DNA from: Clostridia bacterium
GTDB lineage: Bacteria; Bacillota; Clostridia; Christensenellales; Aristaeellaceae
Direction of reading: 5' to 3'
Assembly: GCA_017460585.1 (NCBI GenBank)
Contig: JAFUAR010000392.1
Span: 1-33,266 of the forward strand
DNA length: 33,266 bases
Part shown: positions 24,779-31,974 of the stretch, piece after piece
Layout: every line of letters starts with the position of its first letter
How positions within the stretch are numbered: position 1 is the stretch's first letter
Notes under the pieces: model-generated
Database searches by the model: none
The model's input: only the letters and a program-made list of their open reading frames with translations
Told to the model about the DNA's origin: nothing
Program-made: the position numbers and the translations under genes

Positions 24779-26044
24779 TTACAATCGTATTGCTCTGGAT
24801 GTATGAATGCGGCGCAGACGGTTGCGATAACGCGTGCGAATCATTACATTCTGTACCAGACCAATGGCGGCAAAGTTGGTAATGAGATTGGAACCGCCGT
24901 AGCTCACGAAGGGGAGAGGAATGCCTGTAACGGGCAGCAAGCCAATGACCATGCCGATATTTTCAATAATGTGCGCCAGAAGCATTGCCATTACGCCGAA
25001 AATAACATAAGCGCCGTAAGGATCCTCCACGCTGAGCGCCAATCGTACAAGGCGCGCTACAATTAGTATGTACGCAGCAACCAGCGCAAGACCGCCGATG
25101 AGTCCAAACGATTCGCATACGATCGCGAAAATAAAGTCAGTATGGTCGTCCGAAATATAGCCGAGCGAAGCAAAGCTGCCGGGAGATACAATGCCTTTGC
25201 CGAAGAGTCCGCCGGAGCCAATGGCAATTTGTCCGTTGATAATCTGGCGGGCGTCGTCCGGATAGTTTTCGGGGTGCAGCCACATCATAATGCGCATCAG
25301 GCGAAAGTTATCGCCGGAAGAGGTATTCCGCATATAGTACCATACGGGGATCGCCAGCAATACTGCCGCAAATAGTATGCGGTACAGAAGGCTGCGCTTG
25401 GTGCCGGAAATGTATATCATTAGTATGAACACAAAGGCGTACACCATCGCGGTGCCGAAGTCCGGTTGAATAAGGATGAGGAAAGTCGGAATGCCCATAT
25501 AAATTCCCATCTGCATTAGATCGCGCAGCTTGGATATGGGCTTTTTACGGTCGGAGAATACCTTGGCGAAGCAAATGATCATGGCGACTTTGCCAAATTC
25601 AGAGGGCTGAAACGCGCTCTCACTGCCGACGCGCAGATATGCCTGCATACCTCCGCGACCGACCTCCGCCAAGAGCTTGGTCAACATCAACACCGCCAAA
25701 TTGAGCAGATAAATCCCGTTGGACCAGCTGCCAAACAGCTTGTACGGAACATATGTGAATATAACCATCATCACAAGTCCGACGAGCAGATTGCGCAATT
25801 GTCGCGCGGGATAATAGGTAGACTGGGTTTCCAGCATTTCCATAATGCTGCGTGGCGTCTCGACGACTTCGGAAGAGGTCGCAGAGAATACGCACACAAT
25901 GCCAAAAAGGGATATGAGCATCACAATAATGAACAGCGGCCAATCGAAATAGCGCATCATGCGCCTTGTCAGCCGGTTGTCCACAATGGTCTGAACCTGA
26001 GCTTTCGCCCAGATTCTGAAATTTTCTATCCAGGTTCTGACCAT
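24779..26044 (-). CDS. rodA: Peptidoglycan polymerase RodA (SEDS family)
   Basis: A SEDS glycosyltransferase of 421 residues that polymerises lipid II during side-wall growth, working with PBP2. About ten transmembrane helices are visible. The key catalytic aspartate is in the conserved SDDHTDFIFAIVCESFG. Other family marks are FQPSEFGKVAMI, QPDFGTAMVY, and LPFVSYGGSNLI near the end. The N-terminus carries an extra 30-residue cytosolic stretch before the first helix. The ATG at 26044 is preceded by AAGGGG and lies 19 bases after the PBP2 stop. It is the last gene of the maf-mreBCD-mrdA operon, which favours RodA over FtsW or SpoVE. Confidence 0.93.
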   Translation of the reverse strand: MVRTWIENFRIWAKAQVQTIVDNRLTRRMMRYFDWPLFIIVMLISLFGIVCVFSATSSEVVETPRSIMEMLETQSTYYPARQLRNLLVGLVMMVIFTYVPYKLFGSWSNGIYLLNLAVLMLTKLLAEVGRGGMQAYLRVGSESAFQPSEFGKVAMIICFAKVFSDRKKPISKLRDLMQMGIYMGIPTFLILIQPDFGTAMVYAFVFILMIYISGTKRSLLYRILFAAVLLAIPVWYYMRNTSSGDNFRLMRIMMWLHPENYPDDARQIINGQIAIGSGGLFGKGIVSPGSFASLGYISDDHTDFIFAIVCESFGLIGGLALVAAYILIVARLVRLALSVEDPYGAYVIFGVMAMLLAHIIENIGMVIGLLPVTGIPLPFVSYGGSNLITNFAAIGLVQNVMIRTRYRNRLRRIHTSRAIRL

Positions 26045-26063: not shown

Positions 26064-28577
26064 TTATTCCGTCATGCTGAAATCCGCGCCAATGGTGCTG
26101 GATTCCGATCTGGAGGCGTGCTCCAAATAGTATACGATGGTTTCCTTGCCGGCGGGCGAGCAGTTCGCGCCCGCATAGCCGTTTTGAATATAAATTACAA
26201 CGACAATCTGCGGGTTTTCCTTGGGTGCGTACAACACCTCCCACGCGTTGTTTTCCACGTCCAAATCGGTTCTTTGCGAGGTTCCCGTCTTTGCGGCGAT
26301 ATAGTCTACATCGGCGAAGTACTTCGCGGCGGTACCGCCGTCTTCCATAGAGGTAACGTCCTCCATGCCCTCGCGAATCTTTTCGAAATAGAGGTTGCTG
26401 GTATAGATTTGGTTGGCGACCACGGGTTCTTTATCCATCACCACGCTGCCATCCGGCGCGATGATCTTATCCACGATCTGCGCGTCGTATACCGTGCCTC
26501 CGTTGGCAATTGCGCTCACGTAACGCGCAACGGCGATGGGGGAGACCTGCGTAATGGACTGCCCTATGCCCAACATGATGGTCTCGTTCGCGGTCCAATA
26601 GAGCTCCTGAATGTAGGTGGTAATGGTGTTACCTACGTAATGTGAATTCAGGTAGCTTGCCGGAATGTTCAGGTCGTACAGCAGTACTTCACGAATTGGC
26701 TGCGCCCATTCGGCTTTGCGATCGTAGCTTACCGAAATATCCAAAAGCTTTTTTACAGCTTCCGATATGCGCTCTTCGTCGTACTCAATTCCCAGTTCCT
26801 CGCCCACGGAAAGCAGCTTGGAGCGAATGGCGTTCGCGGCGATGAGCGGCTTATAGGTCGCTTGCTGACTGATGGGGAGATCGGGGTCGTACAACATATC
26901 CTGATTGCCCACAAAGCTGGTGGTTTCGCCGGGCAGTTCAATGTTGGTTTTGGAAGTCAAACCCAGCGCGGCCGCCCATTTATATATGTTGGTCGCTCCC
27001 AGCGCGTAGCTCACGGTGTAGAAGAAATAATTGCAGGAATTCTTAATTGCCTGTACAATGGTTTGGTTGCGGTGTCTGTTGATATCGCTGGTCCAGCAGC
27101 GCGGCGCGTGCGTGGTATCAATACCGGTACCGGTAAACGCGCCCATATCGCTAATGCGCGTATCTACGGTAATTGCGCCTTCCGCCAGTCCTGCCAGCGC
27201 GGTGCACAGCTTGAATATGGAGCCGGGACTATCCTTTGCGGATACCGCGCGATTGTACAGCGGATCGTTGCCTTCCTGCACCTTTGCCCAGTCGCTCATA
27301 GATATGGTTCCGCCGTTGAAGTACGAAAGGTCGAAGTCCGGATAGCTTACCAGACCCAGTACGCGTCCTGTATTGGGATCCATTGCGACCATTGCGCCGG
27401 AGGAGGCGAGCTGAATCTCCTTTCCGGCGGCTTCGTATTCATCCAATATATCCTGATTCAGGTAGAGCCAGTGTTCGTTGACGATTGTCTCCTCCTGCAT
27501 TACGCGAATATCGTCAATGGTGCTCTTAAGAGCGTCCGCCATTACTTTTTGCAAGTCGGTATCGATGGTGAGCACCACCGAGTTGCCGTTTTGCGGGGCG
27601 GTGTAGTCCAGATCGCGCACGACCTTGCCGCGGGTGTTGCGCTCTACGGTGCGGCTGCCCTGTCGGTACTGGATGTAGGGCGAGAGTTGGTTTTCCAGCG
27701 ACGCTTCAATGCCGTCCGCGCCGATAAAGGCATCGTTCGGGTAACCCTGCGCGCGGTACTCATCCAGTCGAGTGGAACTGATTTTGCTGATATAGCCTAC
27801 TACATGGCAGGCGGTAGTGCCCTGCGGATATACGCGCGTGGAGCTTTCGGAAATATCGATTCCGTCCAGTTCGTCCGAGCGCACCTCGATTTCGGAAACC
27901 GTTTCAAAGCCTACGTCGTAGGCGATGGTGCATGGGGTGGAATTGAAGGCGTTCATGCGCGATTCCTGCCATAGTGCCAGAATCTTCACCTTCATGGAGT
28001 CGTCAATGTCTTCCGGAATGGAGTATTTGCTTAGTAGCGAATCAAACCAATGATCTTCCGAAACATTGGTCAGGGAAAAGTTCGTGCGGAAAGAGCGCTT
28101 GCGCGACGCCTCTGCCGAATCGGTGGAAGCACCGCCGTTAAACACCCACTGTCCGTGTTCGTTTTTGCGCATCCAGAAATCGTTCACCGTAGTTTTGCCG
28201 TTGGATTCAATCAATTGAATGGCTTCCAACAGCACTCTGGTATACGCTTCGCGATCCGCGGCGGAAGCGCGGGATGGGTCGCGATAAAATGTTACGTTAT
28301 AGCTGGTACGGTCATATGCCAGCGGATTCATGTTGGTATCGTAAATGGTGCCGCGCATTCCGTACAGCGTGATCGACTTGGTGGATTTGTTGGAAGCCGT
28401 TTCGGCATAAGTTTCGCCCATGCTGCGCACCATAATATTCATACGACCGAATATGGCGACGAATATGAGCGATAAAATTACGCACAATATGGTCATCCGT
28501 CCCAGAAACAGGCGATTTGTAGGGTGCTGTTTGGGTTCGCGCTGCGAAATATCGGTAATGAATTTGGGAAGCTTCAA
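26064..28577 (-). CDS. mrdA: Penicillin-binding protein 2 (elongasome transpeptidase)
   Basis: A class B PBP that cross-links peptidoglycan with RodA during elongation. The protein has a single membrane anchor at residues about 25-45, a pedestal domain, and the transpeptidase domain. The active-site triads are SIFK (Ser453, Lys456), SCN (514-516) and KTGT (763-766). At 837 residues it is about 200 longer than E. coli PBP2 (633). One insertion is between the SCN and KTGT motifs (about residues 560-665), and a smaller one lies before the catalytic serine. The start is a TTG at 28577, preceded by AGGAGGTG, overlapping the mreD stop in a TTGA; a longer frame from 28718 would lie inside mreD. Confidence 0.93.
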   Translation of the reverse strand: MKLPKFITDISQREPKQHPTNRLFLGRMTILCVILSLIFVAIFGRMNIMVRSMGETYAETASNKSTKSITLYGMRGTIYDTNMNPLAYDRTSYNVTFYRDPSRASAADREAYTRVLLEAIQLIESNGKTTVNDFWMRKNEHGQWVFNGGASTDSAEASRKRSFRTNFSLTNVSEDHWFDSLLSKYSIPEDIDDSMKVKILALWQESRMNAFNSTPCTIAYDVGFETVSEIEVRSDELDGIDISESSTRVYPQGTTACHVVGYISKISSTRLDEYRAQGYPNDAFIGADGIEASLENQLSPYIQYRQGSRTVERNTRGKVVRDLDYTAPQNGNSVVLTIDTDLQKVMADALKSTIDDIRVMQEETIVNEHWLYLNQDILDEYEAAGKEIQLASSGAMVAMDPNTGRVLGLVSYPDFDLSYFNGGTISMSDWAKVQEGNDPLYNRAVSAKDSPGSIFKLCTALAGLAEGAITVDTRISDMGAFTGTGIDTTHAPRCWTSDINRHRNQTIVQAIKNSCNYFFYTVSYALGATNIYKWAAALGLTSKTNIELPGETTSFVGNQDMLYDPDLPISQQATYKPLIAANAIRSKLLSVGEELGIEYDEERISEAVKKLLDISVSYDRKAEWAQPIREVLLYDLNIPASYLNSHYVGNTITTYIQELYWTANETIMLGIGQSITQVSPIAVARYVSAIANGGTVYDAQIVDKIIAPDGSVVMDKEPVVANQIYTSNLYFEKIREGMEDVTSMEDGGTAAKYFADVDYIAAKTGTSQRTDLDVENNAWEVLYAPKENPQIVVVIYIQNGYAGANCSPAGKETIVYYLEHASRSESSTIGADFSMTE

Positions 28578-29110
28578 AAGAGTTTCACCTCCTGTTCGGA
28601 AGAAACGGTATGCGCCTCCTTGGAGCCGGTGAATAGCTTGCGAAGCGGGATATACAGTGCGTCGGTCAACAATGCCGCAATACCGCTGCGAATGAATCCG
28701 TCGCGCAGGTACAACCACGCAAAGCTGTTGGTTACGAAAAATCGATAAATGACAAATAAAATCTCGGCGGTAAGGAACAATAGAAACGCCGCCAGCGTTC
28801 TACGCAGCCACTGCCGCCATATCGGTCCGGATACATCTACGGAGGGTACAATAATCAATCCCATGAGAAAACCGACGATCATGAAAAAGAAGGTCATGAT
28901 ACCCAGCGTACCAGTGGTAATATCTACCAGCAATCCTCCAATCATGCCAAACAACAGCCCCTGCATACGCCCATTGATCAGAGAAATGCACATAATCAAG
29001 GGAAACAGCAGCGGAACGACGAATGTGCCATGATAAAATACGGGTAATATCGCCGTATCGATCAGCATGGCTGCAAGCGTCAGAATCAGGGGCATGAGTC
29101 TCTTCAGCAA
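28574..29110 (-). CDS. mreD: Rod-shape protein MreD
   Basis: A small integral membrane protein (178 residues, about five or six helices) of the elongasome, bridging MreC and PBP2/RodA. Typical features are the early LTLAAMLIDTAILP helix, PLLFPLIMCISLINGRMQGLLFGMIGGLLVDI, and a basic cytosolic tail. It is assigned by hydropathy and by its fixed place between mreC and mrdA. The start is a TTG at 29110 with GGAGG 10 bases upstream; its stop overlaps the PBP2 start. Confidence 0.9.
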   Translation of the reverse strand: MLKRLMPLILTLAAMLIDTAILPVFYHGTFVVPLLFPLIMCISLINGRMQGLLFGMIGGLLVDITTGTLGIMTFFFMIVGFLMGLIIVPSVDVSGPIWRQWLRRTLAAFLLFLTAEILFVIYRFFVTNSFAWLYLRDGFIRSGIAALLTDALYIPLRKLFTGSKEAHTVSSEQEVKLF

Positions 29111-29141: not shown

Positions 29142-30230
29142 TTAGTTCTCCGCCCAAGAATCCTCCGGCAGCGGCTCCAAACGTACGTTCGGGGCAGCAG
29201 TTGCGCCGTTTGCGCTGGGCCAATTCCATTCGCCTTCCACCGCTTCCGTACTCATCGGCATACTGTTCGGATCGGGCGTGGGCGACGCGGTCGCGGTGGG
29301 CGCCGGACTGGGCGTGGGAATGGGGGAGAGGCTCCCGCTCGCTTTTTCCACCTCGTCGCGCAAAACGAGTACCTCTTCAATGTGCACGAAATCCACCGCA
29401 GGTTCGACTACTGCGTAGTTGCCGTCGGAACCCGCGCTTAGACTCACCTGTGTTACGGTGCCGATTACGAGCCCCTTCGGGTATACGGAATCCGTGCCGG
29501 AGGTGACTACAACATCGCCTGGCACCACGTTGTTGACTCTGGGTAGGTAATTCAGGTAGCACTGCGCATCGTCCGAGCTATCGGAGGTACCGCCGCGCAG
29601 TATGCCGTCGTCGCGCGTGCGCTGTACGAGGCAGCCCAAGCCGCTCCGCGGGTCAATAATGGTGCGTACGTTGGCGTAGTTGAGCCCAACCTCATATACG
29701 CACCCTACCAGACCGTCGCCGGTCACTACCGCCATATCTTTGGATACGCCGTGCATTTCGCCGCGATTAATGGAGAAAGTGGAAAACCACTGCCCCGCGT
29801 CGCGGGCGATTACCCGAGCATAGACTGGATCAAGCGATTCATAGCTGCTGCTCGCATCCAGCAGCGATTTGAGGCGTTCGTTTTCCAATAGCGCCTCCTC
29901 CGCCGCGGCGAGCTCCAGCGTTAACTGCTCGTTTTCCCGCGATAGTTCTTCATATGCCGCCTGCAGCTTTCCATAGTTGCGCTGATTGGCGACGAAATTT
30001 TTTACGCCGCTGGCAGCGCCGGAAAGCGCCGATTGCACAGGGCTGAAAAAGGAACCGATGGCGTTTTCCACAATGGAAATCTGCGCGCCGGATCGCAGCA
30101 CCAGAAAGAATACCGTCGCCGCCACAACCGCAAGGGTAATGACGGACAGCAGTACGTTTCGGATGAGTACTCTTCTGCGACGCGTATTGCGCGTGCGATT
30201 TTTCGGCTCCTTCTTTTTTAACTTTGGCAT
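29142..30230 (-). CDS. mreC: Rod-shape protein MreC
   Basis: A bitopic membrane scaffold of the elongasome, 362 residues. A basic cytosolic N-terminus (KKKEPKNRTRNTRRRR) is followed by one membrane segment at residues 22-45, then a coiled coil at about 85-120 (YEELSRENEQLTLELAAAEE), then the two beta-barrel domains (RVIARDAGQWFSTFSINRG, then DGLVGCVYEV, and GDVVVTSGTDSVYPKGLVIG). An unusual C-terminal tail of about 65 residues, rich in Pro, Thr and Ser, follows. The ATG at 30230 has GGAGGCG upstream, 15 bases after mreB. Function is to link MreB filaments to PBP2 and RodA. Confidence 0.95.
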   Translation of the reverse strand: MPKLKKKEPKNRTRNTRRRRVLIRNVLLSVITLAVVAATVFFLVLRSGAQISIVENAIGSFFSPVQSALSGAASGVKNFVANQRNYGKLQAAYEELSRENEQLTLELAAAEEALLENERLKSLLDASSSYESLDPVYARVIARDAGQWFSTFSINRGEMHGVSKDMAVVTGDGLVGCVYEVGLNYANVRTIIDPRSGLGCLVQRTRDDGILRGGTSDSSDDAQCYLNYLPRVNNVVPGDVVVTSGTDSVYPKGLVIGTVTQVSLSAGSDGNYAVVEPAVDFVHIEEVLVLRDEVEKASGSLSPIPTPSPAPTATASPTPDPNSMPMSTEAVEGEWNWPSANGATAAPNVRLEPLPEDSWAEN

Positions 30231-30245: not shown

Positions 30246-31286
30246 TTAGATTTCAATCAGGCAGCCGGATTGTAGAAAGCGATTGGCAATTCTGGAATCC
30301 GATGCCGCGAGGCAGAGCCCGCGCGCTACGTCGTCCTGCGGCGTTTCGTCCATATGTACCGGCATATGCACCAGCTCGCTCAGGCGGTCGGAAAGCCCGT
30401 CCAGCAGTGCGCCGCCGCCGGAAAGGTATACGCCCTTTTCCAATATGTCCTCCGCCATTTCCGCGGGGGTATTTTCAAACGCCTCGCGAATGGTCTCCAA
30501 CAGCTGTTCGGTCGTGGGAAGTATCGCGTTGTATATATCGCGCGCGGTGACCTCCACGGTGGCGGGTTTGCCGGTGCGCGCGTCGCGTCCGCGCAGCGAG
30601 GCGACTTCGTTATCGATGAAGGCGATATCCTTGCAGGTGCCCAGATCGATTTTCAAATCCTCCGCCGTGCGCTGACCGATGATTAAGCCCTTTTGTTTGC
30701 GAATAAAGCGCATAATGGCTTCGTCTATGGAAAGGCTTCCCGTTCGCGTAGAACGGGAGGCGGCAATGCCGTTCATGGAGAGCACGCTGACCTCGGTGGT
30801 CGAGCCGCCAATCAAAACTAGCATACAGCCGCGCGCGTCGTCAATCGGCGCACCCGCGCCCAGCGCGGCGGCAACCGTTGAACGCATAAGCCACGATTTT
30901 TTAGCGCCCGCCGCTTGCAAGGCGCTTTGCAGGGCTTCCAGCTCTACGCGCGTGCAGCCCTGTGAAACAGATACCGCCAAACGGTTTTTCTCCAGCGCAC
31001 GCCGCTTGCCCAAAGCCTTTTCAGAGAGCGTGCGCAAAAGCGCGATCGCGAGATCTACGTTGCCCACCGCTCCGTCCATAATGGGGGAATGCAGCGTTAC
31101 GTCGCGTGGAGTACGTCCAAGCATCTGCCGCGCGTCGCGCCCTGTCGCCAATATTTCATCAAAATCCTCCTGCAGCGTGAGCACATAGCTCGGCTCTCGC
31201 AGAACGACCCCTTCGTTTTCCAGACAAATGGTTACGTTGGCGGAACCCAGATCAATGCCTACGCCGCCGTTGGAAAAAACGCCCAT
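30246..31286 (-). CDS. mreB: MreB-like actin homologue with a degenerate ATPase site
   Basis: A bacterial actin of 346 residues and normal length, which organises side-wall synthesis. The phosphate-1 motif GIDLGSAN (9-16), the IGQRTAEDLKI signature and the adenosine motif LSGGGALLDGL are intact. Several active-site residues differ from the family. Where others have IEEPMAAA, this has MRSTVAAA (134-141), losing the catalytic Glu. VVDIGGGTTEV is LVLIGGSTTEV, replacing Asp by Leu158 and Gly by Ser162. AGDEMDEAI is TGSLSIDEAI. It may bind nucleotide without hydrolysing it. It lies in the canonical place before mreC. A second, normal MreB elsewhere in the genome is likely but cannot be seen. Confidence 0.9.
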   Translation of the reverse strand: MGVFSNGGVGIDLGSANVTICLENEGVVLREPSYVLTLQEDFDEILATGRDARQMLGRTPRDVTLHSPIMDGAVGNVDLAIALLRTLSEKALGKRRALEKNRLAVSVSQGCTRVELEALQSALQAAGAKKSWLMRSTVAAALGAGAPIDDARGCMLVLIGGSTTEVSVLSMNGIAASRSTRTGSLSIDEAIMRFIRKQKGLIIGQRTAEDLKIDLGTCKDIAFIDNEVASLRGRDARTGKPATVEVTARDIYNAILPTTEQLLETIREAFENTPAEMAEDILEKGVYLSGGGALLDGLSDRLSELVHMPVHMDETPQDDVARGLCLAASDSRIANRFLQSGCLIEI

Positions 31287-31303: not shown

Positions 31304-31873
31304 TTATATGCCGAATTCGCGCAAAAGGGCTTTCACATCGTCCACGGGGAAGCCCATTACATTTTCAAATGAACCGTCCAGTTTAGTAACGAACGCGCCC
31401 GCGCCGCCCTGTATGCCGTATGCGCCCGCTTTATCCATGGGCTCGCCGGTAGCGATATACGCGTCGATTTCCTCGTTGCTCAATGTTTTAAAAGTAACGC
31501 CCGTGCGCGCTACGCGCAGCGCAGTTTGATTGGTATCGGTATCGATCACGCATACGCCGGAAAAAACCTCGTGCGTTCTGCCGCTCAGCGCGCGAAGCAT
31601 TCGTCTGGCGTCCGCCTCATCTTCGGGCTTGCCTAGCGGCGTTCCGTCCATGGAAACCAGCGTATCCGACGCCACAATCACGCTATGCGGGCAGTGTGCC
31701 GCTGCGGCGAGCGCCTTGCGCTTGGCGAGTACGGCGACGATTTCCTTCGCTTCGCCGGTCACGTGCTCGTCGACCTCAGGCGCGCATATTTCAAACGAGT
31801 AGCCCATTTTTGTGAGCAGCTCGCGCCTGCGCGGCGAAGTGGAAGCCAATACCAGCGTTTTTTCACTGCACAT
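31304..31873 (-). CDS. maf: Maf family nucleotide pyrophosphatase
   Basis: A 189-residue house-cleaning pyrophosphatase of the Maf/YhdE family, hydrolysing non-canonical or UTP/dTTP-type nucleotides. The motifs are LASTSPRRRELL at residues 8-19, then ASDTLVSMDGTPLGKP with the catalytic Asp, then LSGRTHEVFSGVCV. The start is the ATG at 31873, which gives the usual short N-terminus; an upstream ATG at 31951 lacks homology. It heads the cell-shape operon and is 17 bases from mreB. maf before mreBCD is a common order in Bacillota. Confidence 0.94.
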   Translation of the reverse strand: MCSEKTLVLASTSPRRRELLTKMGYSFEICAPEVDEHVTGEAKEIVAVLAKRKALAAAAHCPHSVIVASDTLVSMDGTPLGKPEDEADARRMLRALSGRTHEVFSGVCVIDTDTNQTALRVARTGVTFKTLSNEEIDAYIATGEPMDKAGAYGIQGGAGAFVTKLDGSFENVMGFPVDDVKALLREFGI

Positions 31874-31907
31874 ACCTATACAACTCCATTTTGATACAAG
31901 AATATAT

Positions 31908-31919
31908 CGTATTATAGCA
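31908..31919 (-). promoter_or_regulatory. Extended -10 promoter of the maf-mreBCD operon
   Basis: Read on the minus strand, TGCTATAAT (the -10 hexamer complement at 31911-31916) is an extended -10. No strong -35 is seen. A small palindrome, CTTTCGCACGAAAG (31943-31956), lies just upstream. Confidence 0.55.
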
Positions 31920-31974
31920 TGGAACTGTAACAAATCCATGAACTTTCGCACGAAAGGTGAAAAATCGCAAATAG

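Follow-up and report, generated by a model that had tools for sequence, protein, structure and literature searches.

The window, by which we mean the whole 33,266-nucleotide stretch of DNA analysed here, derives from a gut bacterium of the genus Faecivicinus (family CAG-74, order Christensenellales), Candidatus Faecivicinus being equivalent to GTDB UMGS1603 in that family and order (PMC8035907). The genome is a fragmented metagenome-assembled genome (MAG) of 423 contigs with 87% completeness. On the minus strand of the window, genes reading in a single direction form a maf-mreB-mreC-mreD-pbp2-rodA operon, the genomic context expected of the MreB/Mbl family (mreB-mreC-mreD, optionally followed by pbp2-rodA), and this synteny is retained in relatives. 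The operon and the altered sites within its mreB gene are as follows:

31304..31951, minus strand: maf nucleotide pyrophosphatase, opening the conserved maf-mreB-mreC gene order; the true start is probably internal to this ORF
30246..31286, minus strand: mreB, the operon copy (copy A), 346 amino acids, lacking Glu136 and Asp158 (PF06723, E 8e-87; NF010539; AlphaFold)
30876..30884, minus strand: Arg135-Ser136-Thr137 (codons CGT TCA ACG, read complementarily) replacing [E/D]-E-P, from alignment to solved MreBs
30792..30815, minus strand: LIGGSTTE (residues 158-165) replacing DIGGGTTE, from alignment to solved MreBs
30735..30743, minus strand: Thr182-Gly183-Ser184 replacing [V/I]-[A/G]-G in the adenosine/phosphate loop, from alignment
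29142..30230, minus strand: mreC (TIGR00219 over cut-off)
28574..29110, minus strand: mreD (weak TIGR03426 match, E 5e-6, together with position)
26064..28718, minus strand: penicillin-binding protein 2 (PBP2), the class B elongation transpeptidase, with SIFK, SCN and KTG motifs; the true start is probably internal to this ORF
24779..26044, minus strand: rodA (NF037961 RodA over cut-off)

The window MreB scores 291.5 bits against PF06723 (cut-off 27) and 300.7 against the NF010539 MreB profile (cut-off 293); against the stricter TIGR00904 it reaches 278, below the cut-off of 366. Its AlphaFold model is a confident full-length MreB fold (pLDDT 92.3), and the top 25 PDB matches to this model are all MreB or Mbl, with TM-scores of 0.81-0.90. 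Canonical MreBs (PF06723; Geobacillus 7zpt/8azg, Caulobacter 4cze-4czm, B. subtilis MreB/Mbl) resemble the window protein in fold over the full length at approximately 36-38% identity, and share with it the mreC/mreD/pbp2/rodA operon and the nucleotide-binding signature, but the window protein lacks the catalytic Glu, the Mg-site Asp and one phosphate-loop Gly.

These losses were located by a phmmer alignment to the Geobacillus and Caulobacter MreBs that is gap-free over residues 100-200. The replacements of EEP by Arg135-Ser136-Thr137 and of DIGGG by LIGGS, both reported in a preliminary description of this DNA, are borne out by the alignment, with the correction that, of the two acidic residues, it is the second, now Ser136, that corresponds to the catalytic Glu (Caulobacter E140, Spiroplasma MreB5 E134). 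Leu158 lies at the Mg-site Asp position (Caulobacter D162) and Ser162 at the phosphate-loop Gly position. A third change described at the same time, in the AGDEMDEAI region, holds in part: Gly184 to Ser is the sole change there at a residue invariant among canonical MreBs. The alignment of this region is gap-free (A-G, G-S, D-L, E-S, M-I), the rest of it varies normally, and position 184 is variable even in close relatives, where Gly is kept in 6 of 34. Asp12, Thr163-X-Glu165, the RTAE-K helix and the GGG motif are retained. The hydrolysis motif 'E...T-X-[D/E]' is thus broken, with Glu gone and T-X-E intact; the statement that several hydrolysis residues are lost applies to Glu136 and Asp158, and it would be untrue to say that all are missing, because Thr163-X-Glu165 persists. 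The catalytic Glu and the Mg-site Asp are both absent (Ser136, Leu158), and they are functional rather than family-defining: Spiroplasma MreB3, which is counted as an MreB, also lacks the Glu.

The roles assigned to the replaced residues agree with solved structures, in which the attacking water is held by Glu and Thr and the Mg2+ shell by Asp12, Glu134 and Asp156 (PMC4051119; PMC9195046). In Spiroplasma MreB5 (ScMreB5), ATPase activity falls from 0.15/min in the wild type to 0.01/min in E134A (about 15-fold) and to 0.08/min in D156A (about 2-fold) (PMC9195046), and BsMreB D158A forms long, static filaments (PMC3206058). According to PMC3599482, which cites earlier work for B. subtilis, D158A cells of that species are only slightly wider, and their filaments are reported to move about as fast as in the wild type, whereas the equivalent D165A in E. 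coli is non-functional and the cells are not viable; tolerance of this change therefore depends on the host. The Thr-acid pair and the Glu play different roles (PMC9597168). CcMreB double filaments form without nucleotide, and what ATP hydrolysis does for MreB function is described as still ambiguous (PMC9195046).

The state of the operon copy was followed through approximately 170 MreB sequences from genomes of the family and of other families of Christensenellales, including seven related loci in named public genomes such as that of Candidatus Faecivicinus avistercoris. Within the subclade of operon MreBs that contains the window copy, Glu136 is present in 0 of 53 sequences and Asp158 in 3 of 53, with one row gapped at that position, so that Asp158 is absent from 49 of the 52 readable sequences; position 158 drifts among Cys, Val, Ser, Leu, Asn and Thr. 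E136, P137, D158, G162, G184 and T15 are lost in the subclade, while the binding residues D12, G14, G160, G161, T163, E209, K212, G290 and G291 are still conserved. In the 34 core operon copies Thr163 and an acidic residue at 165 are kept, and Arg135 is invariant (34/34). The possibility that a catalytic Glu or Asp had been relocated was addressed for the catalytic loops, where comparison of the subclade with Glu-bearing MreBs found no newly conserved acidic residue; the newly fixed residue there is Arg135. The window mreB is under purifying selection, with dN/dS against genus mates of 0.13-0.15, and because the state extends across the subclade, dN/dS is low and the predicted fold is confident, the gene is a working MreB and not a relic. 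In three related genera (G014 L064, G067 L197 and G076 L196), the operon MreB carries extra residues near positions 218-230, which separate the first half of the profile match from the second and make these frames longer than those of other family members.

A search for a second mreB in the genome, suggested by the preliminary description, yielded one further MreB outside the window (contig C420, locus L002), a contig-edge fragment that is likewise without Glu: it reads RSD at the Glu motif, with Thr163 replaced by Lys and Glu165 by Thr. The fragment adjoins a gene for a YgjP-like metallopeptidase, and a YgjP-like metal-dependent hydrolase gene stands repeatedly beside the solo MreB in the window's subclade (L002 and its relatives L044, L046, L077, L083 and L103). 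The family norm is two MreBs, of which copy A belongs to the mre operon and copy B stands by itself. Copy A lacks Glu in every family genome read: beyond the window's subclade, the majority of genera have Lys there, and Gln, His, Ala and Ser also occur. In copy B the site is occupied by Arg, Lys, Ser or another residue, except in three genomes outside the window's subclade (G028, G030, G035), where Glu is kept. Both copies are Glu-less in 60 of the 63 family genomes in which both were read and in 32 of the 35 that are at least 90% complete; the single-contig genomes G186 and G208 each carry exactly two MreBs, both Glu-less (EKP and DKN). HMM and protein searches, on which these genome-wide statements rest, detected no further MreB of the canonical type in the near-complete and the single-contig genomes.

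The damage differs between the copies in the window's subclade: copy A lacks Glu136 and Asp158, and copy B lacks Glu136, Thr163 and the acidic residue at 165. All 28 sequences near the Candidatus Faecivicinus avistercoris copy B have lost Glu136 and have Lys163 and Thr, Ser or Ala at 165, with Asp158 kept. Both copies have evolved faster in this subclade than in the rest of the family, with stem branches of 0.58-0.86 and 1.09-1.21 changes per column. The RodZ_C domain (PF13464) had no match in any of ten family genomes (10/10, including G000, G002, G009, G186 and G208); the HTH_25 matches in these ten genomes are short, and the one inspected, a PF13413 match in the window genome, is an Xre-cupin regulator. 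A loss of RodZ tracking the loss of Glu was considered and rejected, as PF13464 is also absent from a genome with a Glu-bearing copy.

Glu loss is not confined to this family. In a tree of the order that omits the motif columns, at least four changes in the Glu state are required, given as a minimum because the placement of fast-evolving rows is unsure, and operon MreBs in several small-genome families of the order are also Glu-less. The mostly maf-linked MreBs of small-genome families outside CAG-74 form one very divergent Glu-less clade (ESP, EAP, DSP; loci L109, L111-L118 and L121 in G037, G039, G041-G043, G048, G050, G052, G053 and G058), and some of its genomes have no other MreB. In two other families of the order (G037 L108, G052 L120), two or three MreB genes stand in direct tandem in addition to the Glu-less MreB beside maf, and in these tandem genes Glu is kept and the following Pro is replaced (EEI/EEV). 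In a class control of 50 MreBs, 20 of which were picked mostly among the weakest matches, Glu stands at position 136 in 42. Seven genomes of other Clostridia share the loss of Glu136: five carry the Glu-less MreB beside a Glu-bearing one in the same genome (G283, G316, G317, G286, G296), and two do not. In these two (G287 and G318, family f40; L252, L282, L250 and L280), both MreBs are Glu-less (SSP and ESP; KKP and EKP), apparently a separate case of double loss.

Among characterised proteins, Spiroplasma MreB3 (SpeMreB3, 7e1c/7e1g) has the broken 'E...T-X-[D/E]' motif in common with the window MreB, low ATPase having been measured in MreB3. Its residues at the three sites are Asp, Lys and Ser, its phosphate release is too slow to measure, and it is thought to form a stable filament (PMC9597168). 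Copy B of the subclade, with S/K/T-S at these sites, matches MreB3 closely, whereas the window copy A keeps T-X-E and loses the Mg-site Asp; MreB3 also belongs to a swimmer that has no wall, where an ATPase-active MreB5 works alongside it. The identity between the window MreB and MreB3 is only 27%, and in trees that contain no Spiroplasma row the operon copies cluster with the operon MreBs found across their own order. The likeness to MreB3 is therefore taken as convergent, such that the window protein, as far as its residues indicate, may work like an MreB3 while not being descended from one. The laboratory mutants BsMreB D158A and ScMreB5 E134A/D156A are altered at the same positions and form filaments that are static or poorly organised, but they are single engineered changes, in contrast to the naturally fixed states of the window's subclade.

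Taken with the published mutants, the residues suggest that hydrolysis by the window MreB is likely weak or absent, in keeping with the nucleotide-binding but non-hydrolysing MreB originally proposed, with the qualification that some hydrolysis may persist. Since copy A is the mre-operon MreB beside mreC, mreD, pbp2 and rodA, its position argues for a main role in elongation. MreB motion is driven by wall synthesis. The account that we favour, and hold to be rather better than an even chance, is that the window MreB is a genuine, selected MreB serving the wall-elongation machine of its operon, and that it, like the MreB cytoskeleton of the family as a whole, no longer performs canonical ATP hydrolysis but works as a slow-turnover scaffold. 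Filaments would assemble on nucleotide binding, or even without nucleotide, and would turn over slowly, as hydrolysis would not trigger their disassembly. They would serve as membrane-bound scaffolds for MreC-MreD-PBP2-RodA, moved by wall synthesis and not by a filament ATPase, with turnover proceeding by a route other than hydrolysis. Copies A and B, with their differently broken sites, would probably occupy the same structure, perhaps as co-filaments, although such co-assembly is a guess from their joint presence. The chief uncertainty of the scaffold account is residual hydrolysis via Thr163-Glu165 and Arg135, which is possible for copy A by analogy, because Thr163-X-Glu165 is intact and ScMreB5 D156A kept about half of its activity.

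Carried further, the same observations could describe a rewired site in which Arg135 and Thr163-Glu165, with Asp12 alone on the metal, replace Glu136 and Asp158 and sustain hydrolysis. The invariance of Arg135, the retention of the Thr-acid pair in core operon copies, the separate role of that pair and the activity left in D156A are compatible with such a site; nevertheless it appears unlikely, given that no new acidic residue has become conserved in the catalytic loops, that position 158 drifts freely as if unneeded, and that the Thr-acid pair, too, is missing from the subclade's copy B. Less plausible still is that the nucleotide site is being lost altogether, leaving a purely structural, nucleotide-free scaffold: the losses at D158, G162, G184 and T15, an unconstrained position 158 and the nucleotide-independent double filaments of CcMreB would fit, but the continued conservation of D12, G14, G160, G161, E209, K212, G290 and G291 speaks against this. 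The preliminary description had also envisaged that the protein might regulate a normal MreB or form co-filaments with it, an arrangement for which the Glu-less paralogues beside Glu-bearing MreBs in five genomes of other Clostridia offer a precedent. In CAG-74 it is very improbable and that part of the proposal fails, as the second MreB is Glu-less as well, no Glu-bearing MreB stands alongside in 60 of 63 family genomes, the three exceptions fall outside the subclade, and the two single-contig genomes carry only Glu-less copies. A pseudogene, assembly error or misalignment, which a fragmented MAG might invite, is scarcely conceivable and is ruled out by the dN/dS and by the recurrence of this state across dozens of independent genomes and in named MAG records, alongside a full-length confident fold.

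MreBs of the low-ATPase kind are already known. Spiroplasma MreB3 is one example, and in a published survey 95.8% of 4832 MreBs had the hydrolysis motif, the other 4.2% lacking the full motif (PMC9597168). A search of the literature for this MreB trait in Christensenellales found nothing, and as far as the literature searched extends, what is new is the retention of an elongation operon in a family where most genomes have no Glu-bearing MreB, together with the evolutionary fixation of metal-Asp loss and the different ways in which the two copies are damaged.

Judged from sequence, cell shaping in family CAG-74 probably relies on MreB filaments with little or no ATP hydrolysis. It is a more tentative suggestion, to which we give somewhat less than even weight, that CAG-74 walls are built with a two-part MreB cytoskeleton of which neither subunit hydrolyses, the sites being differently broken in the subclade and turnover being run by non-ATPase means; if this is true, filament turnover needs a driver other than the actin ATPase cycle. 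A complete elongation operon without a catalytic-Glu MreB represents a natural experiment in which the much-debated part played by MreB hydrolysis can be put to the test, and the family would either show that hydrolysis by MreB is dispensable for MreB-directed wall growth or reveal a second route to the chemistry.
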